Shown here: positions 23,855 to 37,013 of the stretch, in pieces
How the letters are laid out: the number at the start of each line of letters is the position of its first letter
Numbering within the stretch: the first letter of the stretch is position 1
Virus record (IMG/VR): IMGVR_UViG_3300025120_000110
Coordinates: 1-46,113 of that record
Reading direction: 5' to 3' (one strand)
Source of the DNA: a virus
DNA: 46,113 nt
Notes under the pieces: generated by a model
What the model saw: only the letters and a program-made list of their open reading frames with translations
Told to the model about the DNA's origin: nothing
The model's database searches: none
Made by a program: the position numbers and the translations under genes

Positions 23855-25746
23855 ATCGCAAATGGAATAAATGTTCCCTCTGGTTTTTGTTCTACAGACG
23901 CATTCTCAGCATCAAAAAATACTTTCGCAAACCAGTTACCTAAAACCAAGGAAGAATAAGAGTCTTTTCTAGCTCTATTTGGACCTTTTTGTCTTCTGAG
24001 GTTTTGTGGTAAATTAAATGACTGAGAACCTTGTGGGTTTGCTATAACCTCAATGTTAGCACATTCTGACTTTGTAAGTTCAATAACATACTTTTGGTGG
24101 TCTATGAAATCAATCATCATGGCCCCTTTAGAAGCTTTTGGTGATTTTATATCCCAGTTTAATTTATCTATAGGCAAGTTCTTTTTTCTTTGTTCATCAA
24201 AATGAGCATCAACCGCTCTGGACGCAAATAAAATTCTTTTATGATCTATTGCTGCTTGTAGCATTTCATTAGCATTTCTAATCCAATTAGAAGTAGGTTT
24301 CCTTAAAATACAATATTTACGTTCTCTTAAGTTGTATTGATTTTTAAAATTTATTATATCTGAATGCCAATTTTCTGGTTTTTCTAGATCAACGTCAATA
24401 ACACCAATGTTTATATTTGCATTTTTAAACAAAGCACTCTCATTACAAGAATTTATAAACTGAACTCCTCCATTGTAGTCACCACAGATACCAACAATAT
24501 TAAAGTGCTGTATTAGATATAACATATACTCCATATGTTGTTTTAAAGAAACTCCCGCTATAGCATAACCATGAATTAAACAAACTTTTTGTGCGTCTCT
24601 GTCTATCTTAAAAACATGCATCGCAAAATGGTCAGCACTTGTATTGCCAGCCCAGTTTGGGTCAAAAGATAACAAGTATTCATCACTGGGGTTCCCAACT
24701 ACTTCAACAGCAGGAAATTCTCCATCTGGGATAGTGCAAGCAGCCATCTTTGATAATCTGTAATATCCATCACTTTCATCTATAAATTGTGCGCCAAACT
24801 CTCTTTTAAACTGCATCTCACTCATAGTAGCTTTTGCTTGTTTAAGCAGATTTTGATCGTAGAGTCTTGATGGGGCGCAGTCGTAACTTAACTGCATGAT
24901 TAGTCTATAAGCATCATCTTTAAGATCGTCTTCCTCATAGTCTTCTTTTTTTACTCCGTCTCCTTGTATTAACTCTTCATATTTTTTATAGAGTTTATAC
25001 ATATATTCAAATTTAAATGATGGAGATGAAAGAATAATAAGTTTATTATTAGGCCATATATATCTATCCTTTTCTCTCATCTCGCCTTTGTCGATTAGAC
25101 GGGATTCTAAATTGTATAGTTCCTCCCTCTCGATAGGATTCTCTACCACCCCCAGAAATGGTATAATAACTTCATTAAATATTTTTTCAGGTATCGTTAA
25201 GAACTCATCCAAAACAATCCTATTAAATCGAAATCCACGAAGCCTCTCACCATTAGCTAACGGAAGGGCTATCGCCCTAGCCTTACCTAAAGTCATTGTC
25301 CATTGGTCAGTTCCTTTAGTTATTTTAAATCCACATTCTTTGATTAGACTTGCTTCGGGTTTGCTAATTATATCCTCCATCTTTTGGAAGATTTGTTTAG
25401 ATTGCCTAAATGTCCCTGCAATAACTCCTATGTTTGAATTAGGGTTGAGTAGACACTCTAGTAAGACGTAGATCGCAGTAGAGAACGTCTTCGACATACC
25501 ACGCGAGAAAACGAACATAGAATAGTCAGAAACCATCATCCCCTTAATAGCCATTGCCTGAAAGGGGAATAACTTAACACCTAAAAATAACTCAGAAGTA
25601 AATGCTATATTGTTCCGTAAGAACTTATACAGCAAATACTTCGCTTCTTCTTCTTTGATACTGCCGTCCATTTCCTTTAGGAACTTATTTAGTTCCTGAG
25701 AGGAATGCTCAAGCCGATATCCTTGTTTTCCCTTTGTCCAAGACAT
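23851..25746 (-). CDS. Terminase large subunit
   Basis: A 631-residue DNA packaging motor. Residues near 75-90 contain the ATPase Walker A of terminase type, FVFSRGMSKTFST, unusual in having Ser in place of the Gly before Lys. Walker B with catalytic Glu is IVLDEF near 179; a coupling motif LIILSSPSF follows near 240. The C-terminal nuclease domain has LSFDPNWAGNTSADHFA near 360, a GICGDYNGG segment near 420, and MMIDFIDHQ near 545, which supply the metal-binding Asp residues of the RNase H-like fold. The start overlaps the upstream zinc-finger nuclease gene by 38 bases. Identification is strong; packaging mode (headful or cos) cannot be told. Confidence 0.93.
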   Translation of the reverse strand: MSWTKGKQGYRLEHSSQELNKFLKEMDGSIKEEEAKYLLYKFLRNNIAFTSELFLGVKLFPFQAMAIKGMMVSDYSMFVFSRGMSKTFSTAIYVLLECLLNPNSNIGVIAGTFRQSKQIFQKMEDIISKPEASLIKECGFKITKGTDQWTMTLGKARAIALPLANGERLRGFRFNRIVLDEFLTIPEKIFNEVIIPFLGVVENPIEREELYNLESRLIDKGEMREKDRYIWPNNKLIILSSPSFKFEYMYKLYKKYEELIQGDGVKKEDYEEDDLKDDAYRLIMQLSYDCAPSRLYDQNLLKQAKATMSEMQFKREFGAQFIDESDGYYRLSKMAACTIPDGEFPAVEVVGNPSDEYLLSFDPNWAGNTSADHFAMHVFKIDRDAQKVCLIHGYAIAGVSLKQHMEYMLYLIQHFNIVGICGDYNGGVQFINSCNESALFKNANINIGVIDVDLEKPENWHSDIINFKNQYNLRERKYCILRKPTSNWIRNANEMLQAAIDHKRILFASRAVDAHFDEQRKKNLPIDKLNWDIKSPKASKGAMMIDFIDHQKYVIELTKSECANIEVIANPQGSQSFNLPQNLRRQKGPNRARKDSYSSLVLGNWFAKVFFDAENASVEQKPEGTFIPFAI

Positions 25747-26662
25747 TTACTCGTTCATCTATAAAATATTGTAAGTCAACATTCCACATAGCTTCACCAT
25801 GATAAAGAATAAGTGGAATTAGCTTTTTAGCTCCTGCTCTGTTGTGTGCAAAAATGATTTGTATGTTTTTAGGGTAGTCTGTAATTAAGTTTCTTATATT
25901 GTGCCATAAATAACCAAGATTAGACTTAAACTTGGAAACCTTGTTATCTTCTTCTAGTTTGTTTATTGTTGTTTCTACCACAACGAACATGTAAGAATTA
26001 AACTCTACGCATCTATCCATCTCGCGCCTAAACCTGTCAATGTCCTTGCCGAAGGTTTGTCTGAAGTCATCTTGCGACTTACGATCAACAAATGTCTTTG
26101 TATAAAGATCTCCTCTGGCCGTATAGTCTCCGAAGTCCAATTTGTTTGTTACAGAGTCTTGAAAAATAAGTGGGGTTTTTTCTCTAGTATCAGTAAAGAT
26201 TGGTATAGTCTGATAATCATTCTCCCAGAAATTTTTAGGTAGATTTGCATTGAAGTAATTTTCTACCCCGACTTCTTCCAAAAAGGCAGAATACGAACCC
26301 CAAAACTTTTTATAGTAAAATATGCTCGCCATCTGCGACAAGTCGTAAAAAAGGTTTGGAGGAGATATAGAAATTTCTTTTAATGTAAATTTATCTACTA
26401 CCTTTTCTTTAATATACTTTTTGACATCCTCCTCTGGAGCCGAGTCCATCCATAACTTAAAATTATCATAACAGTTAAAGCTATCCCTAAAATATTGATC
26501 ATAAGATCGAAAAGCCAATTTTTCACCCGTGTAGAGGTCTCTTCGGTCGTAATGTTTGACATAGTAATCTCCTATAGTTAGAGAATGAGCTTTTAAGTGA
26601 GCATGGAAGCTTCTTTTTTTGTTAAACTCTTTACCACATTCTTTACAGACAAAATCGCTCAT
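25709..26662 (-). CDS. C2H2 zinc finger fused to ERCC4/XPF-type nuclease
   Basis: A 317-residue protein. Residues 6-26 form a C2H2 finger (C6-x2-C9-x12-H22-x3-H26). Residues about 153-280 look like an ERCC4 (XPF-type) nuclease: FTDTREK at 157-162, LDFGDYT at 175-181 and FVDRKSQDDF at 191-200, which give the acidic and basic residues of the ERKxxxD site. Such enzymes cut branched DNA, or act as restriction-like nucleases. The gene overlaps TerL by 38 bases and its upstream neighbour by four, so it belongs to the packaging operon. A role in cutting branched DNA before packaging, or in recombination, is inferred. Confidence 0.75.
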   Translation of the reverse strand: MSDFVCKECGKEFNKKRSFHAHLKAHSLTIGDYYVKHYDRRDLYTGEKLAFRSYDQYFRDSFNCYDNFKLWMDSAPEEDVKKYIKEKVVDKFTLKEISISPPNLFYDLSQMASIFYYKKFWGSYSAFLEEVGVENYFNANLPKNFWENDYQTIPIFTDTREKTPLIFQDSVTNKLDFGDYTARGDLYTKTFVDRKSQDDFRQTFGKDIDRFRREMDRCVEFNSYMFVVVETTINKLEEDNKVSKFKSNLGYLWHNIRNLITDYPKNIQIIFAHNRAGAKKLIPLILYHGEAMWNVDLQYFIDERVNVLDKGKTRISA

Positions 26663-27720
26663 AAGATCTCTTTTTTAGATATTCCTAGAATCCTAGCTTT
26701 GTAGTCATCCATAGACTCAAGTCGATCAGCTTCTTCTTCGATTAGCTTGTTCTGCATCTCTGCCATCATTATCATGCGATCACGCTCCTCTTTGTCTTGA
26801 AAAGCTTCGACTAGTGCAGCGATGCTTCCGTTCTGCTCCCCCCTTGCCTTTAAACGCGCCTGACGGCTCCCGTTAAGGTCTTTCGTCAAAGATTCGATTC
26901 TCTTCTCACATTGGTTTAGCTCGTCGCTGGTGGCCTTTATAATCTCCGTAAGGCGCAATGTTATATCTCGTTCATTTTCAGTGTCATTGAGCATATTATT
27001 CAATCTGTCGATTCTCTGTTGAATATGCTTCTGCCGAACATAGTTCGTGCAAACAGTAATATACAAGTTTAGCTCATCATTTGTTAAATCGGGCTTGTCC
27101 CACACCGTTCTAACAAACTCACTCTCAAATAAATCTCTATCTGCTATTGTTGAATATTGATTGATGAAATGAACGAAACGAGGACTCTTCAGGTAGAAGA
27201 GAAGCTTCTCACACATTTTCTTTTGTTTTGTTTGTATTGATATCTCATCAAAGCTCTGTCCCGCCCAGTCATTAACCTTTTTAATGGATCTAGATAGTGA
27301 TTTAGGTGGAGACCACTTATCATTAGTGACCATATCGTTATCATCTACGATTTCTGGCCTGTAGCTACGCAAAAATTCCATCACCATCCTATGCTGCTGG
27401 CTCAATGGTTGAATTTCTCTATCTCGGAAAACTAATCTAGTCGCTTCCAAAGCATTCATACCCCTTTCGATGTTGTCACTCATCAAAAATTCTCTTTGTT
27501 GCGTCTCTAACTCAATTTCTTCAACTCTTTGGGGTGTAGTAGTATTAAATTCTAAATTATTATTAATTAAAAATGCTCTAACAGCCCTACCTTCTTTAGA
27601 ACGACCATCTAAAGTGTCGTCATTAAACACAATTTGCGTAATATGTCTTAAATCGGGGTTTTTAGTAAACTCTTCTTGTATTTGGGTTTTCTGTTCTTCT
27701 GTTAACTGTAGATTATTCAT
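26659..27720 (-). CDS. Coiled-coil protein, possible small terminase subunit
   Basis: A 353-residue helical, highly charged protein. The N-terminal 140 residues contain two segments that resemble helix-turn-helix units (DLRHITQIVFNDDTLDGRS and MNALEATRLVFRDREIQ), suited to DNA binding; residues 210-330 are coiled-coil (RIDRLNNMLNDTENERDI). It lies two genes upstream of TerL, with an ATGA overlap on both sides, a place often taken by the small terminase. Small terminase subunits have an N-terminal HTH followed by a helical oligomerisation region, which fits, but I did not recognise a specific family. Confidence 0.4.
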   Translation of the reverse strand: MNNLQLTEEQKTQIQEEFTKNPDLRHITQIVFNDDTLDGRSKEGRAVRAFLINNNLEFNTTTPQRVEEIELETQQREFLMSDNIERGMNALEATRLVFRDREIQPLSQQHRMVMEFLRSYRPEIVDDNDMVTNDKWSPPKSLSRSIKKVNDWAGQSFDEISIQTKQKKMCEKLLFYLKSPRFVHFINQYSTIADRDLFESEFVRTVWDKPDLTNDELNLYITVCTNYVRQKHIQQRIDRLNNMLNDTENERDITLRLTEIIKATSDELNQCEKRIESLTKDLNGSRQARLKARGEQNGSIAALVEAFQDKEERDRMIMMAEMQNKLIEEEADRLESMDDYKARILGISKKEIL

Positions 27721-28394
27721 AAAATATCGTTATCCTTCATGATTTTAAGGGCAATGTGATAAAATTTCTTTTTTAAATTTGCCATTTGTTTATATCTTGG
27801 TTTTCTTCTTTTAGAAGAATCCGCTTTAAACCCAAACTTCTTTGCTACTTCATTTTCATCGATATGATCAATATAAAGCATGTAATATATGTTTTTATGT
27901 TTTTCATTTAATTGTTCCATAACCAACACATGCAACTTGTCTGAAGATTCTTTATAATCTACAAAATCTTGAATATTCGTCGTTCCTGTAGCTATACCCT
28001 CTTCTAACGCTAAAGGTAATTTTATATTGTAAGCTCTTTCTTTTTTTTTCCTCCATTTAGCGAAATCAGGGCAGCTTTCATCTTGCTCTTGGCTTTTTGT
28101 TAATTCACAAGAATTTGCCCCCATATTATGAGGACAACGCAGACACGGCTTTGCGAAACTTGAATAATTATTACGAATCAGATTTTTTATCTGATTAGAT
28201 ATAATCATCGAAGCCCAAGGCTTAAATGAACGAGACTGATCCCATAGATGCCACTTATTATATATATGTAAGCGAATTATTTGACAGACATCATCGTAGT
28301 CCATCCACGCTAAAGCACTTAATTGCCATTTAGGTCTATATTTTTTAAGAAGCTCTTCTAAATCATCGCGTTGACTTTCAAAATCATTATTCAT
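27717..28394 (-). CDS. Sigma-70-like (region 2/4) phage transcription factor
   Basis: A 225-residue protein. Residues about 32-78 match sigma region 2 (MDYDDVCQIIRLHIYNKW, then FKPWASMIISNQIKNLIRN), similar to phage late sigma factors of the T4 gp55 type and to ECF factors. Residues 84-108 contain a cysteine cluster (C84-x2-C87, C96, C108) that could bind zinc. A helix-turn-helix-like ENEVAKKFGFKADSSKRR segment lies near 185-205. It would direct host RNA polymerase to phage promoters. The gene overlaps both neighbours. The ATG at 28394 is chosen over one two codons upstream; the difference is trivial. The function is likely but based on motif resemblance. Confidence 0.6.
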   Translation of the reverse strand: MNNDFESQRDDLEELLKKYRPKWQLSALAWMDYDDVCQIIRLHIYNKWHLWDQSRSFKPWASMIISNQIKNLIRNNYSSFAKPCLRCPHNMGANSCELTKSQEQDESCPDFAKWRKKKERAYNIKLPLALEEGIATGTTNIQDFVDYKESSDKLHVLVMEQLNEKHKNIYYMLYIDHIDENEVAKKFGFKADSSKRRKPRYKQMANLKKKFYHIALKIMKDNDIL

Positions 28395-28743
28395 CAACAT
28401 CCCTCATACGGGAAGACGAGCATTCTTTAACAGTTTGATCTAAAAGGGCTTGACCTTCTGGATCATTTGAAGGAGGTCTTTGCATAGGAGGTAAGTTAGA
28501 TGATTGAGAACCAGCAGAAGACCAAATGTCTTTTAAACTAGTCTTATCACTATTACCCTCAACAACAATACTTCTTTTTAATTTATTTAAATCGACATCT
28601 AGCTCTGGCTCTAGCTCTGGCTCTTGTTTTTTAGAAGCTTTTGACAAACCATCGAGACTTTCACCGCAACTAGAACAAAATTTAGGCTTTGTCACCTCAT
28701 ACAAGATCTTATGTCCACACGATACACAAAAAAGTTTATTCAT
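28387..28743 (-). CDS. Zinc ribbon protein with acidic Pro-Glu linker
   Basis: A 118-residue protein. Residues 6-26 form a zinc ribbon (C6-x2-C9 ... C23-x2-C26). Residues 39-52 are EPELEPEL-type sequence, encoded by an imperfect six-base repeat. The rest is Ser/Pro-rich and disordered. It is coupled to the sigma-like gene and may act with it as a transcription accessory factor. A promoter whose -10 box ends five bases before the ATG is present. Function unknown. Confidence 0.55.
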   Translation of the reverse strand: MNKLFCVSCGHKILYEVTKPKFCSSCGESLDGLSKASKKQEPELEPELDVDLNKLKRSIVVEGNSDKTSLKDIWSSAGSQSSNLPPMQRPPSNDPEGQALLDQTVKECSSSRMRDVDE

Positions 28744-30730: not shown

Positions 30731-31072
30731 ATGACCGTTAAGAAACCAGCATTCATCTACTCCGTAATCGTTAAAGCTCTCAAAGAATCTCGCTTGAGAC
30801 GCGACATGGCTAACGTAGAAGAGCCAGCAATTGACAAATATACCGCTGCTGTCATCACTGATATGTGCAGTGAAGCAGTAGCCGACAATAGTGACATTAA
30901 AAACTTTCGCGGAACTTGTGAATGGATACTTGAGACAATTCTCCGCTTGCGTAAGGACACCTACCCAGACATTCACCCTCTCTGCCGTCACAGGCTCGTC
31001 AAGGAAGATCTCATGCTGAAGAGCGATGATCTGGCCGCGAATAACATGAATAAAAAACTCTCGGTAGGGTAA
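30731..31072 (+). CDS. Accessory protein, unknown
   Basis: A 113-residue helical protein (MTVKKPAFIYSVIVKALKES). It contains Cys residues at about 46, 63 and 83 without a metal-site pattern. It has its own promoter, is followed by a strong terminator (31091-31122) and then by repeat copy 1, so it forms a complete single-gene unit. Its GC content is higher than that of the virion genes. Confidence 0.55.
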   Translation: MTVKKPAFIYSVIVKALKESRLRRDMANVEEPAIDKYTAAVITDMCSEAVADNSDIKNFRGTCEWILETILRLRKDTYPDIHPLCRHRLVKEDLMLKSDDLAANNMNKKLSVG

Positions 31073-31090
31073 CCTGCCACTGTCATGGAG

Positions 31091-31122
31091 CCTCGCCACC
31101 TCAACGGGTGGCGAGGTTTTTT
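31091..31122 (+). terminator. Intrinsic terminator
   Basis: Stem CCTCGCCACC / GGTGGCGAGG with a six-base loop, then TTTTTTCTT. Confidence 0.9.
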
Positions 31123-31154
31123 CTTGTAAAAAAAACAAATAAAAAGCTTGACAG

Positions 31155-31234
31155 CGTAACCCACTGATACTCAACGAGTTACGAGCGTCGGCCCCGCGCC
31201 CATGCGTAAGTCGTTGATACTCAGTCACTTACGC
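31155..31234. repeat. Twin-hairpin repeat copy 1
   Basis: First hairpin 31155-31183 (CGTAACCCACTGA, TAC, TCAACGAGTTACG), GC-rich linker of about 20 bases (GCGTCGGCCCCGCGCCCAT), second hairpin 31204-31234 (GCGTAAGTCGTTGA, TAC, TCAGTCACTTACGC). Confidence 0.85.
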
Positions 31235-31269
31235 AAGTTAAAAAAAGAAATAAAAAACGCATTTAGGGC

Positions 31270-31297
31270 TTGCGGTTGGCTGCGTTTGTGATAATAT
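31270..31297 (+). promoter_or_regulatory. Leaderless-type promoter for gene at 31304
   Basis: -35 TTGCGG, 16-base spacer, -10 TAATAT, TCCCAC, then ATGAC. Confidence 0.6.
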
Positions 31298-31303
31298 TCC
31301 CAC

Positions 31304-31615
31304 ATGACAGTAAATGACATCATGACCCGCCCGACCGACACCTACTTCGTAGTCACCGCCGCCAGCTATGCCGACCCCATGACTAGGTGGCTAGTGGGAG
31401 GCGGCAGTGATCAGCAGCAAGCCATCTCCATCGCTGAAAGCGTTGTGAGCGGGGTGGTAGACGGTTTCACCGACAAGGCCGAAGCCTTTGAGAGTTACCC
31501 CGAGTTGGCCCCGCCCACCAAAAAATGGCTCGCCATCACAGCCGCTGCCGATGAACACTATGATGGCCTACACGCCGACTCTGTTGAGCGATGCCGTGAG
31601 GCCGATTCGGAATAA
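31304..31615 (+). CDS. GC-rich accessory protein between repeats 1 and 2
   Basis: A 103-residue protein (MTVNDIMTRPTDTYFVV) of visibly higher GC than the virion genes. It shows alternating beta/alpha segments (TYFVVTAASYADPM, QQAISIAESVV) but no known motif. It has its own leaderless promoter and is bracketed by twin-hairpin repeats. This could be a gene cassette gained from a GC-richer source. Function unknown. Confidence 0.55.
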   Translation: MTVNDIMTRPTDTYFVVTAASYADPMTRWLVGGGSDQQQAISIAESVVSGVVDGFTDKAEAFESYPELAPPTKKWLAITAAADEHYDGLHADSVERCREADSE

Positions 31616-31620
31616 GCTCT

Positions 31621-31698
31621 GTAACTCCTTGACACTCAGGGAGTTACGAGCGGCGGCCCGCCCGCGCCTCGTAACTCATTGATTCTCAATGACTTACG
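31621..31698. repeat. Twin-hairpin repeat copy 2
   Basis: Hairpin 31621-31647 (GTAACTCCTTGACACTCAGG then GAGTTAC), linker AGCGGCGGCCCGCCCGCGCC, hairpin 31670-31698 (CGTAACTCATTGA, TTC, TCAATGACTTACG). Confidence 0.88.
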
Positions 31699-31802
31699 AA
31701 AGCTGTAATCAGAGGCTTTGTGTGCTTGTCAAGCGATATCTTTGTATTTGTTATTTGTCTCTATAACCTGCAACCTGAGATACAAAAAAGATAAAAAAAG
31801 AT

Positions 31803-31830
31803 TTGCACTCCTGCGATCTTTTGGTAGATT
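31803..31830 (+). promoter_or_regulatory. Leaderless-type promoter for gene at 31837
   Basis: -35 TTGCAC, 16-base spacer, -10 TAGATT, CCTCTC, then ATGAC. Confidence 0.55.
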
Positions 31831-31836
31831 CCTCTC

Positions 31837-32022
31837 ATGACAGTTCAAAATCCTATTGGCCAACTCGCCCCGATGACAGAATCCGACCTGCGCGATATGC
31901 TCGATGACGGGCCTCGCTGCGGGAACTGGAACCCCACGCCCGATGAGATTCAGGAGGTTCTCGCTGAGATCCATGCTGATCTCGGTGATCGCGATCCTAA
32001 CTGGTCTTCAGATCCTAAATAA
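31837..32022 (+). CDS. Small acidic accessory protein
   Basis: A 61-residue acidic protein (MTVQNPIGQLAPMTESD) rich in Asp, Pro and Asn. GC-rich. It has its own promoter and a terminator at 32048. An alternative frame on the opposite strand is open too, but the promoter decides for this one. Small, acidic phage proteins are often inhibitors of host enzymes, but nothing here shows that. Confidence 0.45.
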   Translation: MTVQNPIGQLAPMTESDLRDMLDDGPRCGNWNPTPDEIQEVLAEIHADLGDRDPNWSSDPK

Positions 32023-32047
32023 TCAAAAGAGACAAGACTCTCTTCAA

Positions 32048-32074
32048 GGCTCCCGAAAGGGAGCTTTTTTTTTG
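32048..32074 (+). terminator. Intrinsic terminator
   Basis: GCTCCC, GAAA, GGGAGC, followed by nine T. Confidence 0.9.
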
Positions 32075-32094
32075 TGCTTTTATGTAAAAAAAGA

Positions 32095-32123
32095 TTGCCA
32101 AAAACAAATTCTTCTGTTACACT
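32095..32123 (+). promoter_or_regulatory. Leaderless-type promoter for gene at 32130
   Basis: -35 TTGCCA, 17-base spacer, -10 TACACT, CCCCCC, then ATG. Confidence 0.6.
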
Positions 32124-32129
32124 CCCCCC

Positions 32130-32348
32130 ATGTTTACGTTCAGTTACTACATCGTCGCCAGCACAGGAGTTTATACAGGAGTCGCCATGTCGCGTTCTCC
32201 GAAGAAGGCTTCCGAAGAAGCCTCGCGGATCGCTTGGGAAAATCTCCAAGAGGGGGATGCCAAGGCTCAATACTGTTCGGGCATCTCTGTGGAGGGGTGG
32301 ACGGCGTGGCGGGGTCATAAAAAAATCGCGGAATACATGGACATCTAA
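32130..32348 (+). CDS. Small accessory protein ending in repeat copy 3
   Basis: A 72-residue protein (MFTFSYYIVASTGVYTG). The stop codon TAA is part of the first hairpin of repeat copy 3, so the repeat is transcribed with the gene. Other frames are open here because the region is GC-rich, but the promoter with six-base spacing points to this one. No domain recognised. Confidence 0.5.
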   Translation: MFTFSYYIVASTGVYTGVAMSRSPKKASEEASRIAWENLQEGDAKAQYCSGISVEGWTAWRGHKKIAEYMDI

Positions 32349-32420
32349 CTCCTTGATACTCAGGGAGTTACGGGGCAGGGGCGGCGCGGGCCGCGTAACT
32401 CATTGATACTCAACGAGTTA
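32346..32420. repeat. Twin-hairpin repeat copy 3
   Basis: Hairpin 32346-32370 (TAACTCCTTGATACTCAGGG then AGTTA), linker GGGGCAGGGGCGGCGCGGGC, hairpin 32394-32420 (GTAACTCATTGA, TAC, TCAACGAGTTA). Confidence 0.88.
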
Positions 32421-32457
32421 TGACATGAAAAAAAATGAATTTAAATGCAGAAATCGC

Positions 32458-32485
32458 TTGCATATCTGGTGATATTTGGTAAACT
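32458..32485 (+). promoter_or_regulatory. Upstream promoter with hairpin leader
   Basis: -35 TTGCAT, 16-base spacer, -10 TAAACT. The predicted RNA begins near 32492 with AGAAGC ... GCTTCT, an inverted repeat that can form a hairpin, and reaches the ATG at 32542 through an A/C-rich leader. It may give the longer protein form. Confidence 0.4.
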
Positions 32486-32578
32486 ATTTGCATAGAAGCT
32501 ATTTAACCTGTGCTTCTCTAACCTACAACAAAACACAAACTATGTTCGGAAAAAAATTCAAATTCAGCAAAAAACCTC

Positions 32579-32606
32579 TTGCACTTACCCAACAACCTGT
32601 TATACT
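32579..32606 (+). promoter_or_regulatory. Leaderless-type promoter for gene at 32614
   Basis: -35 TTGCAC, 16-base spacer, -10 TATACT, seven bases, then ATG. It lies inside the longer reading frame that begins at 32542. Confidence 0.5.
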
Positions 32607-32613
32607 TATCCCA

Positions 32614-32892
32614 ATGCAAACAAACACCATTAACACCAATCCCATCCTTCCTACTAACCCTGTTCAACTTGCTTCTACTCTTACTGGTAAGACAATACGC
32701 TACACGAACATAAAAGCTTCTTCGGTTACAGAAAACAGAGAACGGGTTTTTAAGATTCAGTCCGTAGAGGATATTTCTGTTTCCCATTCAACTGGTAATG
32801 AATACGTTGACGTTCAACTCTCGGACTTAGACGACAATGGATCAGTTAAGCCTCGCAGATTGATCACCTCAAGAATTTCAATTGTTGTGTAG
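32614..32892 (+). CDS. Small accessory protein with two possible starts
   Basis: A 92-residue protein from ATG 32614 (MQTNTINTNPILPTNP), preferred because a promoter with the window's standard geometry ends seven bases upstream. The same frame is open from ATG 32542 (MFGKKFKFSKKPLALTQQ), giving 116 residues; this form would be made from the upstream promoter at 32458. The C-terminal part has beta-like segments (EYVDVQLSDLDDNGSVKPRR), resembling a small OB- or SH3-type fold. Unknown function. Confidence 0.5.
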   Translation: MQTNTINTNPILPTNPVQLASTLTGKTIRYTNIKASSVTENRERVFKIQSVEDISVSHSTGNEYVDVQLSDLDDNGSVKPRRLITSRISIVV

Positions 32893-32906
32893 GTGTGTAA
32901 ACGCAT

Positions 32907-32949
32907 GAGGGGTGGCAGGTTGTGTGTGTCTTAATTCCTGCTGCCCCTC
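32907..32949 (+). other. Imperfect hairpin, possible weak terminator or leader structure
   Basis: GAGGGGTGGCAGG pairs with CCTGCTGCCCCTC (two mismatches), followed by only TTTA. It lies between the gene ending 32892 and the A-rich leader of the gene at 33001. Confidence 0.4.
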
Positions 32950-33000
32950 TTTACAACAAAACTCTTCTAAACAGAAAAAACAAAAAAACAAATTAGCATC

Positions 33001-33222
33001 ATGCCTAAATCATCAGAAACACTTCGTATCGAAGTAAAAACACAAGACCAAGCAGCCATTTTAAATTATGCGTTTGGATTAGTCCATCAACATCTCGCAA
33101 GTCGCCTTGAAGATGTTGAAGATAATAAACTAGATTCTTTTATGGACAACATTAAGTGGACACGCAAACATGCAAAGTCTCTTAATGACAAATTTTCTCT
33201 TAATGAGTTACAGAATTCCTAG
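33001..33222 (+). CDS. Small helical accessory protein
   Basis: A 73-residue charged, probably helical protein (MPKSSETLRIEVKTQD). It has an A-rich leader without Shine-Dalgarno sequence and no promoter of the leaderless class. AT-rich like the virion genes. No family recognised. Confidence 0.5.
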   Translation: MPKSSETLRIEVKTQDQAAILNYAFGLVHQHLASRLEDVEDNKLDSFMDNIKWTRKHAKSLNDKFSLNELQNS

Positions 33223-33229
33223 GAGATCC

Positions 33230-33390
33230 GAAGAATAGGTGGTAACAGTGACCAACTCTTAATTGACTGGCACTCGTCAACAAGCCGATCCCCCTCCTGC
33301 TATGCTAGCCAGCGGGAAGGGGGAACCACTTTCTTGCTAGATGGGGTAAGTCCCGTCCTCCTTCGTCACTGGGGGGCGGGGCTTTTCTTT
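33230..33390 (+). ncRNA. Candidate structured RNA upstream of tRNA
   Basis: About 160 non-coding bases with three hairpins in a row: TTGAC/GTCAA at 33263-33280; CCCCCT-CCTGCT against AGCGGG-AAGGGGG at 33290-33323; and the terminator at 33352-33390. Conservation is unknown; no known RNA family was recognised. It could be a small RNA, a 3' UTR of the 73-residue gene or a leader of the tRNA. Confidence 0.3.
33352..33390 (+). terminator. Terminator-like hairpin adjoining tRNA
   Basis: Stem CCCGTCCTCC / GGGGGGCGGG (ten pairs with two G-T), then GCTTTTCTTT. The tRNA begins at the next base, so it must have another promoter or come from read-through RNA. Confidence 0.7.
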
Positions 33391-33466
33391 GGGAGTGTAG
33401 CTCAATGGTTAGAGCAAACGACTCATAATCGTTTGGTTGCGGGTTCGAGTCCCGCCGCTCCCACCA
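33391..33466 (+). tRNA. tRNA-Met (CAT), CCA encoded
   Basis: Full cloverleaf: acceptor GGGAGTG / CGCTCCC, D-arm GCTC...GAGC, anticodon stem AACGA/TCGTT with loop CTCATAA (anticodon CAT), five-base variable loop, T-arm GCGGG TTCGAGT CCCGC, discriminator A, then CCA at 33464-33466. The G1-C72 pair and the lack of three G-C pairs in the anticodon stem make it an elongator Met or a tRNA-Ile2 (needing lysidine), not an initiator. Repeat copy 4 starts at its last base. Confidence 0.93.
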
Positions 33467-33543
33467 TAACTCATTGATACTGAAGGAGTTACGAGGGACG
33501 GCCCGCCCCGCGCTCGTAACTCGTTGATACTCAACGACTTACG
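33466..33543. repeat. Twin-hairpin repeat copy 4, abutting tRNA-Met
   Basis: Hairpin 33466-33493 (ATAACTCATTGATACTGAAG then GAGTTACG), linker AGGGACGGCCCGCCCCGCGC, hairpin 33515-33543 (CGTAACTCGTTGA, TAC, TCAACGACTTACG). It begins at the CCA end of the tRNA. Confidence 0.88.
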
Positions 33544-33613
33544 AAGGAAAAAGAAGCACACTTTTCTAGGTCTGTCAAGCAGAAAAAAAATAAAAGAAAA
33601 AGCTAAAAAAGGG

Positions 33614-33641
33614 TTGCATCAAATCAAATATGTGGTAAACT
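33614..33641 (+). promoter_or_regulatory. Leaderless-type promoter for gene at 33648
   Basis: -35 TTGCAT, 16-base spacer, -10 TAAACT, TCTCGC, then ATG. Confidence 0.65.
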
Positions 33642-33647
33642 TCTCGC

Positions 33648-34406
33648 ATGTTGATACTTGCTAAAAACAAAGTCGAGTCCGAGCAGTTGGCCAACGTCCC
33701 AACTCCTGCCGCTACGGACACTCACACACCAATCGGTCACGCACTTCTTGCGGATCGCACCCGCAACGTCATTGCTAAAGCTGGTCTTGAGATCACTCAA
33801 GAGGAACACGCAATTGCGCGTGGTGGTCTCCGTTACTTCGGCGGCTTCGCCCTCAAGGGTGATGCCATCGATGGAGATGACCGCAAGCTTGTGCTTGGTC
33901 TCCGCAACGCGCACGACAAGTCCTTCGCGGCTTCCGTGTGCATCGGTAACCAGATGATGGTCTGCGAAAACCTTTGCTTCTCTTCAGATGTAAAGCTCGC
34001 TCGCCGTCACACCGTCAACATCCTTCGGGATCTGAATACGGTGCTTTCGTCTGCCGTGAGTCGCGTTACCTCGCACTGGGTTGACATGGGCAATCGGATT
34101 GCTTCCTACAAGGAGAGTGAAATCTCCAAGGAGGCGGCTTCCGACTTGGTTGTTGATCTCGCTGAGATGGGCGCGTTTCCTGCACGTTCCGTCTACAAGG
34201 CGATTCAGGAGTTCCGCAACCCTCGCCATGAGGAGTTCAAAGGCGGGACACTCTGGACGCTCTACAACGGCGTGACCGAGCATCTCAAGGGTGGCGACCT
34301 TACCAAGTTGCCACAGCGCACGATGACCACGCAGTCTGTCTTTGACAGGCTCGCGGGCCATAAGCCCAAGATCGTCGAGGCCGAAGAGATTGCCTTGCCC
34401 GCATAG
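33648..34406 (+). CDS. DUF932-like phage/plasmid protein
   Basis: A 252-residue protein resembling the DUF932 (phage/plasmid-like) family: HTPIGHALLADRTRNVIAKAGL at 27-48, then RYFGGFALKG, DDRKLVLGLRNAHDKSFAA and VCIGNQMMVCENLCFSSD near 95-115, a typical family stretch (N-S-xx-G-xx-A...G..VfVC.N). The family is widespread on phages and plasmids; biochemical role unknown. The gene is clearly GC-rich, unlike the virion genes, and lies alone between repeat copies 4 and 5 with its own promoter and terminator (34427), which makes it the clearest cassette-like unit. Confidence 0.7.
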   Translation: MLILAKNKVESEQLANVPTPAATDTHTPIGHALLADRTRNVIAKAGLEITQEEHAIARGGLRYFGGFALKGDAIDGDDRKLVLGLRNAHDKSFAASVCIGNQMMVCENLCFSSDVKLARRHTVNILRDLNTVLSSAVSRVTSHWVDMGNRIASYKESEISKEAASDLVVDLAEMGAFPARSVYKAIQEFRNPRHEEFKGGTLWTLYNGVTEHLKGGDLTKLPQRTMTTQSVFDRLAGHKPKIVEAEEIALPA

Positions 34407-34426
34407 TCCTGCCTCTACCATCACAG

Positions 34427-34456
34427 GCCCGCATTCCGAAAGGGGTGCGGGCTTTT
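34427..34456 (+). terminator. Intrinsic terminator
   Basis: GCCCGCATTCC, GAAA, GGGGTGCGGGC, followed by TTTT. Confidence 0.88.
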
Positions 34457-34503
34457 GCTTGCAAAAATAAAATGTTTTTTTAGTTGACACGGGATTTAAG
34501 CCT

Positions 34504-34582
34504 CATAACTCGTTGAGGTTCAACGAGTTACGCGGCGCGGGGCCGCCCCGCCTCGTAACTAACTGATACTCAAGGACTTACG
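34504..34582. repeat. Twin-hairpin repeat copy 5
   Basis: Hairpin 34504-34532 (CATAACTCGTTGA, GGT, TCAACGAGTTACG), linker GGCGCGGGGCCGCCCCGCC, hairpin 34554-34582 (CGTAACTAACTGA, TAC, TCAAGGACTTACG). Confidence 0.86.
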
Positions 34583-34606
34583 ACTGAATTTTAATTCATT
34601 TTTAAT

Positions 34607-34635
34607 TTGACTCTTTTTTTTATTTGAGGTATATT
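34607..34635 (+). promoter_or_regulatory. Leaderless-type promoter for gene at 34642
   Basis: -35 TTGACT, 17-base spacer, -10 TATATT, CTAGCC, then ATGAC. Confidence 0.65.
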
Positions 34636-34641
34636 CTAGCC

Positions 34642-34836
34642 ATGACCAAGACATATAATATTTCTCGACAATACCCAAACGACATACCTTTTGATTTTGT
34701 ATTTGAGTGGTTTAATGGAGCAGAAGAAACAGGAATTGTCTGCTCATTACATGCAGCGATTAAGCTTGCAGAAGAATTTCAAAAGTTCGGTTATAAAGAG
34801 TTGGAGGGCAGCATTCAATTTACCTCTGCAATTTAA
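34642..34836 (+). CDS. Small accessory protein (64 residues)
   Basis: A 64-residue protein starting MTKTYNISRQYPNDIP. An in-frame TTG six codons upstream is rejected because the promoter places transcription start at the ATG. Residues about 20-60 (FVFEWFNGAEETG, HAAIKLAEEFQKFGY) suggest a small alpha/beta fold. Not recognised. Confidence 0.55.
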   Translation: MTKTYNISRQYPNDIPFDFVFEWFNGAEETGIVCSLHAAIKLAEEFQKFGYKELEGSIQFTSAI

Positions 34837-34847
34837 ATTAATTTTAA

Positions 34848-34875
34848 TTGACGAATCAAAATAATCTGTTACATT
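34848..34875 (+). promoter_or_regulatory. Leaderless-type promoter for gene at 34882
   Basis: -35 TTGACG, 16-base spacer, -10 TACATT, ACCCAC, then ATG. Confidence 0.65.
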
Positions 34876-34881
34876 ACCCAC

Positions 34882-35568
34882 ATGGCAAAACTACTTAACG
34901 CTGGAAATTACAAAACACGCAAGGGAGAAAAGTATGGTTGGAAAACCTATGGAATACACCTTGCACCATTTAACATATCAGGAAAAAATGTTTGCGCTTC
35001 TGCTACTACTGGTTGCTCTACTGCTTGTCTCAATACTGCTGGCCGTGGAATCATGCATTCCGTTCAAGATGCCCGAGTTAAAAAAACACGAAGGTTTTTC
35101 GAGGATCGGGATGGATTCATATCGCAGTTATTCAAAGAAATCAAAAGCTCGATTAAAAGCGCTGCGAGAAAAGAATTAAATAGTTGCTTCCGTTTGAATC
35201 TCACAAGCGACATCCTTTGGGAGAGATTTGTTGTTGGACATTTTCCAGATACTCAATTCTATGACTACACTAAACACTTAAAAAGATTCGTTCGTTTCCT
35301 AGAGGGTAAGTTCCCCCCCAACTATCACCTCACATACTCTCGCAGTGAAGAGACTCCTGACGAACTAGTAAAAGGACTCTGTGCGAGCGGTGGCAACGTC
35401 GCAGTGGTCTTCCGCAATCACCTTCCCGAAACGTGGCTTGGAATAGAAGTAATTGATGGCGACGATTCCGATTTACGTTTTGAAGATAGCAGGGGGAAGA
35501 TAGTAGGGTTACTTGAAAAGGGGCTTGCCAAAAAAGACAAGACAGGATTTGTTGTTGAGCCACAATAA
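34882..35568 (+). CDS. Gp88-family phage protein
   Basis: A 228-residue protein of the family typified by mycobacteriophage gp88. Diagnostic features are the N-terminal LNAGNYKTRKGEKYGW, GIHLAPFNISGKNVCASAT at 25-42 and GCSTACLNTAGRG at 44-56, with Cys38, Cys45 and Cys49 as possible metal or Fe-S ligands, then KKTRRFFEDRDGF. The C-terminal domain contains RLNLTSDILWE and YHLTYSRSEETPDE. The family occurs in many phages; no proven activity is known to me, though the cysteine triad and barrel-like pattern have prompted comparison with radical SAM enzymes. It has its own promoter. Confidence 0.75.
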   Translation: MAKLLNAGNYKTRKGEKYGWKTYGIHLAPFNISGKNVCASATTGCSTACLNTAGRGIMHSVQDARVKKTRRFFEDRDGFISQLFKEIKSSIKSAARKELNSCFRLNLTSDILWERFVVGHFPDTQFYDYTKHLKRFVRFLEGKFPPNYHLTYSRSEETPDELVKGLCASGGNVAVVFRNHLPETWLGIEVIDGDDSDLRFEDSRGKIVGLLEKGLAKKDKTGFVVEPQ

Positions 35569-35585
35569 AAATTAATAAAAAAGAC

Positions 35586-35613
35586 TTGCAATAATAAGCA
35601 AACACTATATACT
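35586..35613 (+). promoter_or_regulatory. Promoter for gene at 35623
   Basis: -35 TTGCAA, 16-base spacer, -10 TATACT, nine bases to ATG; a leader of no more than about three bases is expected. Confidence 0.6.
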
Positions 35614-35622
35614 TCAAGCACT

Positions 35623-36000
35623 ATGGGACTCGATCAAAACGCATACAAAGTAAAAAGCAGCTACGCCCCCACCACCAAAACCCAAACTGTCAGGACTACA
35701 GAAATCTGTTACTGGCGCAAGCACAATGCCTTGCAGGGTTGGATGGAGGAACTGTGGTGTGAAAAGACTGGGAAAACACCCATCGAACTTAATTGCCAAG
35801 ATTTAGAAATCACTTCCGAAGATCTTGATAAGTTAGAGGCGACAATCACCAATAACAAACTTCCTAGCACTCAAGGATTCTTTTATGGATCAGACACTAG
35901 CCAAGACGAAAGCCGCAAAGAATATGATCTAGAATTTGTTTCTAAAGCTAGGGCAGCGATCAAGGAAGGATACACAATTACCTATTCTTGCTGGTGGTGA
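35623..36000 (+). CDS. Conserved phage protein of unknown function
   Basis: A 125-residue protein of a type that recurs in phages: N-terminal MGLDQNAYKVK, then ICYWRKHNALQGWMEELW near 28-46, a TQGFFYGSD segment near 83-92, and the C-terminal GYTITYSCWW. I recognise the style (MGLDQYAY... YWRKHxxLxxWM... YxxWW) from other phage genomes, where it is annotated as hypothetical. The pattern of conserved Trp, His and Asp is suggestive of a binding or catalytic site. Role unknown. Confidence 0.65.
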   Translation: MGLDQNAYKVKSSYAPTTKTQTVRTTEICYWRKHNALQGWMEELWCEKTGKTPIELNCQDLEITSEDLDKLEATITNNKLPSTQGFFYGSDTSQDESRKEYDLEFVSKARAAIKEGYTITYSCWW

Positions 36001-36071
36001 TCAAAAAAAATGCAGGAAAATTGGATAATCTTTATAGTTTTAGTAACAGCAATCTTTACAATCTTTTTCTC

Positions 36072-36254
36072 ATGACAATAGAAGTAATACAAAAGGAAGT
36101 TTATGGAAACACCTTAACCTATGTGGCAGATGAATCTGTCAGGAATTCCATAAAGAAACTAACAGGAAGAAAAACTTTGACCGACTACGACATTGAAGCG
36201 CTCAAAGAACTAGGCTTCGTCTTGGTCCTCAAACAGATAACCGTCAACATCTAA
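36072..36254 (+). CDS. Small accessory protein (60 residues)
   Basis: A 60-residue protein starting MTIEVIQKEVYGNTLTY. The frame is open upstream, but a TACAAT -10-like box nine bases before this ATG and the ATGAC context fit this start; no good -35 is visible. The C-terminal GRKTLTDYDIEALKELG looks like a small helical domain. Repeat copy 6 follows. Confidence 0.45.
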   Translation: MTIEVIQKEVYGNTLTYVADESVRNSIKKLTGRKTLTDYDIEALKELGFVLVLKQITVNI

Positions 36255-36262
36255 CCCATCCC

Positions 36263-36341
36263 CGTAACTCCTTCATAATGAGGGAGTTACGCGGGCCGCG
36301 CCGCCCGCGCCGCGTAACTCGTTGATAATCAGTGAGTTATG
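36263..36341. repeat. Twin-hairpin repeat copy 6
   Basis: Hairpin 36263-36291 (CGTAACTCCTTCA, TAA, TGAGGGAGTTACG), linker CGGGCCGCGCCGCCCGCGCC, hairpin 36312-36341 (GCGTAACTCGTTGA, TAA, TCAGTGAGTTAT). It lies between convergent gene blocks. Confidence 0.86.
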
Positions 36342-36423: not shown

Positions 36424-36948
36424 CTAGCTTTTAATTTTATATGGACTGCTATCAGTGTTATTAAGTTTATTTGCTACAACCTGAAGCTTACCATATGTTT
36501 CTTGCTTTTTACCTTGAAGCCATATACAATCCCAACGCTGTCTTCGAGGTTTGCGGTGGTAGTATCGGTATAGCTGCCCTGTGTCTTTATTAATCAGTTT
36601 CCATTTACCTTTAATGGTTTTTACTGTGCCTCCTTTCTCTTCGGGGGTATAGCAACGTTCAGGTCGTGCGCCCACCTTGATACACATCCGCTTCCACTCA
36701 GCATCGTGACCATGCCCGCTGCCAGCTAGGGCATGGGCGATCTCATGTAAAACAACGTCTTTAGATTCTTCTATTGTATTAATCAGAACCAGCTTCTTTG
36801 TAATACCAATTTCTTTTTTGTAGTATCTGCACTGCCCGTATCTGCGGGTGGCCTTATTATCCCAGACAAATTTCCAGCCTATTCCTGCTAGATACCATTC
36901 TTCAAGCTTCTCCGCAGCAAACTTTTGTATTTCTATTAGCTTGTTCAT
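36424..36948 (-). CDS. SprT-like metalloprotease domain protein
   Basis: A 174-residue protein with the zinc site HEIAH at 68-72 and a third His in GSGHGHDAEWKRM near 79-81, the arrangement of SprT/Spartan-like proteases. N-terminal helices include FAAEKLEEWYLAGIGWKFVWD and RRYGQCRYYKKEIGIT, as in the family. The C-terminal part is basic (YRYYHRKPRRQRWDC). The start at 36948 (MNKLIEIQKF) is preferred over an ATG 17 codons upstream because AGGAG lies eleven bases before it. Spartan-type enzymes degrade DNA-protein crosslinks; a role in phage DNA repair or in clearing host proteins from DNA is inferred. Confidence 0.8.
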   Translation of the reverse strand: MNKLIEIQKFAAEKLEEWYLAGIGWKFVWDNKATRRYGQCRYYKKEIGITKKLVLINTIEESKDVVLHEIAHALAGSGHGHDAEWKRMCIKVGARPERCYTPEEKGGTVKTIKGKWKLINKDTGQLYRYYHRKPRRQRWDCIWLQGKKQETYGKLQVVANKLNNTDSSPYKIKS

Positions 36949-37013
36949 TCTACTATAACTCCTATTATTGTTACTATTATTAGAAAGATTAACCACCATT
37001 GATATAAAGTCAT

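Follow-up and report, generated by a model that had tools for sequence, protein, structure and literature searches.

The window that we analyzed, the whole 46,113-bp IMG/VR virus record IMGVR_UViG_3300025120_000110 to which all window coordinates refer, carries between positions 31156 and 36340 six copies of a repeated element with accessory genes between them. An earlier note, made from the letters of this DNA alone, had described two near-palindromic arms around a G+C-rich linker, and indeed every copy is 77 bp long and has two 27-bp dyads, separated by a 23-bp spacer of almost pure G+C; all six lie within a few bases of where that note had placed them. The dyad consensus is TAASTCRYTGA-nnn-TCARYGASTTA. 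Copies and modules follow one another in this order:

31156-31232, unstranded: element copy 1, dyads 31156-31182 and 31206-31232, linker 31183-31205; 84 nt past the stop of the open reading frame (ORF) 30731-31072 and downstream of an intrinsic terminator at 31088-31127
31233-31620, + strand: module between copies 1 and 2, one ORF (31304-31615); G+C 0.58, G+C at third codon positions (GC3) 0.66
31621-31697, unstranded: element copy 2, dyads 31621-31647 and 31671-31697; begins 6 nt past the stop of ORF 31304-31615
31698-32344, + strand: module between copies 2 and 3, ORFs 31837-32022 and 32130-32348 with an intrinsic terminator between them (32045-32076); G+C 0.53-0.54, GC3 0.53-0.62
32345-32421, unstranded: element copy 3, dyads 32345-32371 and 32395-32421; the stop codon of ORF 32130-32348 is the element's TAA
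32422-33465, + strand: module between copies 3 and 4, ORFs 32614-32892 and 33001-33222 and tRNA-Met(cat) 33391-33463; ORF G+C 0.35-0.40, GC3 0.27-0.38
33466-33542, unstranded: element copy 4, dyads 33466-33492 and 33516-33542; adjoins the 3' end of the tRNA-Met
33543-34504, + strand: module between copies 4 and 5, DUF932 gene 33648-34406; G+C 0.56, GC3 0.66
34505-34581, unstranded: element copy 5, dyads 34505-34531 and 34555-34581; 99 nt past the DUF932 ORF and downstream of an intrinsic terminator at 34427-34460
34582-36263, + strand: module between copies 5 and 6, ORF 34642-34836, GP88 gene 34882-35568, ORFs 35623-36000 and 35988-36254; ORF G+C 0.36-0.43 where measured, GC3 0.31-0.45
36264-36340, unstranded: element copy 6, dyads 36264-36290 and 36314-36340; end of the array, in a convergent gap facing the SprT-like gene 36424-36999 (- strand)

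Copies 2, 3 and 6 overlap a stop codon or lie at most 10 nt from one. A scan of the whole 46,113 bp found no further copy: allowing at most 3 mismatches, the dyad pattern matched 16 times, always inside the six copies, with 0.00 expected from 100 shuffles. The earlier note was thus right to confine the repeat to the accessory block, and the copies of long relatives also sit in single clusters (see below). It was likewise right that this is not a CRISPR, as copies are 465-1759 bp apart with genes in between, and regular spacing and unique spacers are lacking.

The same note had taken compensating changes between the arms as a sign of selection for pairing. Single cases of this kind exist (CCTTGA facing TCAGGG), but across 227 distinct copies the facing arm positions vary almost independently; at positions 5/23, for example, the counts (CG 223, GG 160, CC 34, GC 32) fit the product of the column frequencies. 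Among 40 representatives less than 75% alike, pairing in the twin hairpins was 80.0% versus 79.0% in shuffles, with weak covariation, and a long alternative hairpin showed no covariation and pairing below the shuffles. On the coding strand, oriented by gene direction, G-U and A-C mismatches stood at 121:124 and 112:81; G-U is not clearly commoner, and therefore neither RNA strand appears preferred. The predicted folds are very stable (z -3.9 to -7.5); the linker taken as a separate hairpin was dropped, its fold z being just -0.34.

What is kept is the sequence. Bases A3, A4, T10, A18, T24 and T25 and their mirror positions are invariant, which is the hallmark of a symmetric protein recognition site. 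Moreover, the letters of the arms were retained while core proteins diverged to 24-54% identity and the terminase to 51-59%, which argues for a conserved binder. As judged from these alignments, selection acts on the bases and not on pairing. Since evolution keeps the letters and not the folding, the element is probably a protein-bound module border rather than an RNA hairpin, and among the roles offered by the earlier note a protein binding site fits best.

We also looked at the position of the element relative to genes, as called with a home-made gene caller. Convergent gaps held an element in 19 of 21 cases and divergent gaps in 2 of 39 (Fisher p 2e-11); an earlier count had given 21 convergent and 3 divergent gaps with an element, and with the best-scoring genes only the contrast was weaker (13/13 versus 10/34, p 8e-6). 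The majority of copies lie in tandem gaps. In 53 of the 127 tandem gaps with over 20 nt between stop and element there is also a separate intrinsic terminator, compared to 3 of 70 gaps without an element, and 47 of 55 such terminators are upstream of the element. The distance from the element to the next start has a 10th percentile of 85 nt. A gene is thus followed in turn by a terminator, the element, a promoter and the next gene, and because the separate terminators mostly precede the element, many copies are probably untranscribed. By eye, the accessory genes at 31304, 33648, 34642 and 34882 and their neighbors appear to start a few bases past a -10-like box (for example GGTAAACTTCTCGCATG), which suggests one promoter per unit and leaderless mRNAs. 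In two other contigs (L025 and L035), the sequence preceding an element also resembles a tRNA 3' end.

An RNA 3'-end structure or bidirectional terminator, whose hairpins would end transcripts or shield their 3' ends, is the best placed of the alternatives, and we still consider it unlikely. It would explain the location at gene 3' ends and the stable folds, as well as the finding that 24 of 26 gaps with an element at most 20 nt from the stop hold no other terminator and that T runs of at least 5 within 20 nt occur at 139 of 430 strand-ends, where about 27 are expected. However, an intrinsic terminator combines a U tract with a hairpin whose pairing is kept, whereas no T tract adjoins the window copies, T runs being found in some other lineages, and pairing is not selected nor G-U preferred. 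In gene direction, upstream A runs (54%) even outnumber downstream T runs (40%), unlike what a terminator needs, and many elements are preceded by a separate terminator. The folded RNA 3' ends suggested earlier are disfavored by the weak covariation, by the equal frequency of G-U and A-C and by the 47 cases downstream of a separate intrinsic terminator.

Pattern scans and a dyad weight matrix retrieved 325 distinct copies in about 95 IMG/VR contigs, counted by name, with about 860 dyad matches of the matrix in real sequence versus 0-1 in shuffles. Contigs hold 1 to 15 copies clustered in one array, arrays comprise 3-15 copies where the contig covers them, and in five long contigs (G003, G018, G026, G042 and G043) all copies fall in a single cluster each. 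The linker has a mean G+C of 0.85, and the dyad spacing is constant per lineage, 23 bp in most and 24, 25 or 26 bp in others. In G026 (L204, 25529-32408), L149 and L150, spaced at 25-26 bp, the linker has a G+C palindrome around GGCATGCC, while other lineages have cores of the GGGGCCCC type, the core being specific to the lineage. At first G026 seemed to lack the element, but only because the linker model had been fixed at 21 nt.

Homologues of the window's core proteins are encoded in 105 of 127 element-bearing loci, the distant members at the 24-54% identity mentioned above. Terminase identity to that of the window is 51-59% in the long records tested and goes down to about 51% elsewhere; a few records tested returned no terminase match. 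Elements are present at each of the 15 terminase loci whose upstream sequence exceeds 7 kb, and most terminase relatives without elements end before the array. Every long contig tested in which a terminase was found belongs to one family of uncultured, mostly marine phages with genomes of about 105 kb, the terminases being at least 51% identical. Many terminase contigs end at or before the array, for example G025 (L103), whose large terminase subunit (TerL) is identical to the window's; these are probably assemblies broken by the variability and repeats of the array. One contig (G051, IMGVR_UViG_3300009104_001827, 211,117 bp) has about twice the usual genome size and is possibly a concatenated assembly.

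GenBank phages and plasmids gave no element match, blastn with the region or the consensus yielding tRNA matches alone or nothing. A scan for the exact pattern, with 84,980 bacterial and archaeal species each represented by one genome, matched only a Verrucomicrobiales metagenome-assembled genome (MAG); of its two contigs, one (L068) codes for proteins of this phage family. The element thus belongs to the phage family rather than to the repeats of a host, and as to the host the MAG gives only a weak hint. Only tRNAs reached the gathering score in Rfam, and the sub-threshold matches on elements suggest no family, so that the impression that the repeat matches no named family held up. Literature searches found no published description of the element.

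Whether related phages carry different genes between the copies had been proposed as a check, and they do: when one module was compared between contigs, its neighbors were different in 305 of 444 comparisons and the same in 139, and the cluster of modules with the DUF932 gene adjoins other modules in other contigs. Composition also changes at the borders. The GC3 of the modules in the window rises and falls as listed above (virion genes 0.24), and in all contigs the GC3 step between neighboring genes is 0.140 across an element versus 0.069 and 0.064 without one (p 3e-8 and 5e-6). Array genes in G018, G043, L101 and the window are almost all co-oriented, though a palindromic element could recombine either way.

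Traces of module exchange are found in the elements themselves. Between contigs L056 and L029, whose flanks are 98% identical, a single element in L056 (8491) corresponds to two in L029 (3742 and 5129, in reverse complement) that enclose 1.4 kb. The single element is a chimera, its left part equal to that of one L029 copy and its right part to that of the second, with the junction inside the G+C linker. Six more empty/filled cases, not all independent, have the switch elsewhere in the element, so that crossovers fall at the linker centre, the linker end or arm 1, and the contig pair G043/L101 has two further empty/filled switches; the pairs found represent gain or loss of the genes between elements. 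Elements are switch points at 45.5% of sites, versus 33.5% for other intergenic DNA and 16% for genes. Considering this modest enrichment and the varied crossover sites, exchange at elements is real but neither confined to them nor tied to a fixed base. Breakpoint statistics on loose alignments, in which divergence noise dominates and enrichment is little or none, were discarded in favor of these switch statistics. Two linkers of the same contig resemble each other more (0.66) than linkers of different contigs do (0.53), the outcome expected from gene conversion between copies.

Next in probability, and doubtful, is site-specific recombination, in which a dedicated recombinase acting on the two dyads would insert and excise gene cassettes as an integrase does at attC. 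The organization of genes each followed by an element, the unidirectional array closing at a convergent junction, the variable neighbors and the chimeric elements speak for it. The inverted 9-11-bp half-sites also resemble those of tyrosine recombinase core sites, a likeness that we treat as a lead only. On the other side, no tyrosine recombinase (PF00589; control genomes positive) and no serine recombinase (PF00239) was found in 19 records, the crossover point varies, the switch enrichment is modest, and the consensus lacks the attC R box (GTTRRRY). A viral counterpart of the integron, in which a family protein, possibly the C2H2-ERCC4 nuclease described below, would cut or pair the elements and trade single-gene cassettes without a known recombinase, follows closely and seems improbable to us. 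Of the attC-like recombination target proposed in the earlier note, the chimeric elements at empty/filled sites thus stand, and the integron-type recombinase was not found.

Our preferred reading, which we hold with moderate confidence only, is that the element is a protein-bound boundary, read as double-stranded DNA, of independently transcribed accessory modules, and that it doubles as recombination homology. Dimers of a sequence-specific protein would bind both dyads, and the bound dyads would form a nucleoprotein border between transcription units, acting as a roadblock or a supercoil sink. As this border is repeated, it could serve as homology by which general, RecA-type recombination exchanges the module lying between two copies; a relative (G003) encodes RecA. 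Several observations weigh against this picture. No element-binding protein was found. Covariation of the twin hairpins slightly exceeds shuffles in the 40 representatives (11/500 and 18/500 for two measures), so that the element may have a minor structural role, and some lineages have an A run before and a T run after the element, as a bidirectional terminator would. The gap counts depend on a gene caller that misses some small genes. Finally, the excess of switches over other intergenic DNA is modest, about 1.5-fold in likelihood, with an odds ratio of 1.66 (p 7e-4) at 90% flank identity and 1.41 (p 0.07) with stricter flanks (94%), and recombination may be a by-product.

Compared with this boundary reading, an operator or stoperator, at which a phage regulator would silence or activate the downstream accessory genes, has little to commend it. 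The dyads are conserved in sequence and, within tandem gaps, the element precedes the start of the following gene, as such a site should; but its presence in almost all convergent and almost no divergent gaps is the opposite of what is expected from an upstream control site, and as no integrase gene was found there is no sign of lysogeny. Least probable of all is a non-autonomous mobile element of the REPIN or MITE type spread by a transposase, as also raised in the earlier note: palindromic twin units in many copies and the within-contig likeness of linkers recall one, but a Y1/RAYT transposase (PF01797) is absent from the 19 records, the single cluster per genome is strictly limited to transcription-unit ends, host genomes show no element, and the empty/filled pairs differ by genes between elements, single-element insertions not having been separately searched.

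Among known systems, the element works like the promoter-early stem-loops (PeSLs) of T4-type phages (Arbiol 2010, Comeau 2014) and like bacterial BIMEs. According to PMC4503421, PeSLs are repeated intergenic motifs between small accessory genes, ahead of the next promoter and dense in a region whose genes are shuffled among related phages; the element, too, lies between genes, at the borders of modules that vary from one related phage to another. As described there, a PeSL unites a U-tract stem-loop terminator and an early promoter in one motif, whereas the promoters here lie outside the 77 bp, and the window copies have no U-tract stem-loop and consist of two dyads and a G+C linker conserved in sequence, not in pairing. 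The carrier is also unrelated to T4: its nearest cultured TerL is about 23% identical and the family encodes a DnaE-type polymerase III alpha.

BIMEs are extragenic, placed at gene ends, typical of convergent gaps and documented recombination points (PMC1525189), and the element shares with the REP/BIME/REPIN group the paired palindromic units with a short linker at such positions. It differs in lacking the RAYT transposase, in being confined to one array of one phage family instead of dispersed in a bacterial chromosome, and in conserving the letters of its half-sites without selection on pairing. With attC it shares an imperfect palindrome behind a gene or small gene group, a one-way cassette array and modular gain and loss; it differs by an array without the tyrosine integrase IntI, by a consensus (YGTAASTC...GASTTACR) without the R''/R' boxes RYYYAAC/GTTRRRY, by crossovers not at one point, and by modules with several genes and internal promoters. 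The ESAS of cluster K mycobacteriophages, which lie immediately upstream of the start-associated sequence (SAS) and start codon (PMC3203893), are likewise phage inverted repeats with a spacer, repeated at many accessory genes, but the element is found behind stop codons and also ends arrays where no gene follows (19-21 convergent cases). The element is therefore a member of none of these classes, as the defining features of each fail.

Phages trade small accessory genes, but what allows clean gene-by-gene exchange has hardly been explained beyond T4 and lambdoid phages. Here, throughout an uncultured phage family, the genes being traded would be delimited by a dedicated boundary element conserved in sequence, and this would make module borders readable from sequence and accessory genes findable by bracketing. 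It also makes testable the idea that exchange sites are selected rather than accidental, and it offers a handle to find and classify this virus family in metagenomes.

We also considered the family proteins encoded near the array, among which one is a candidate for a factor acting in trans on the element:

25709-26662, - strand: C2H2-finger and ERCC4-type nuclease, present in 11 of 15 family records tested

Its gene overlaps the terminase gene, and the protein has an N-terminal C2H2 zinc finger and an XPF/Mus81-like ERCC4-type nuclease domain with conserved DTREK...GDY...DRK. A RuvB-like gene was considered as a Holliday-junction partner and dropped, since PHROGs labels its product a clamp loader. 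A conserved neighbor of 353 aa is predicted to be all-helical and has no confident PDB match. Among cultured phages, TerL matches Bacillus and Clostridioides phages at about 23-31%. Finally, a family-conserved protein with sigma-70 region 2 is encoded near the array at 27717-28400 (- strand) and is a probable phage sigma factor.

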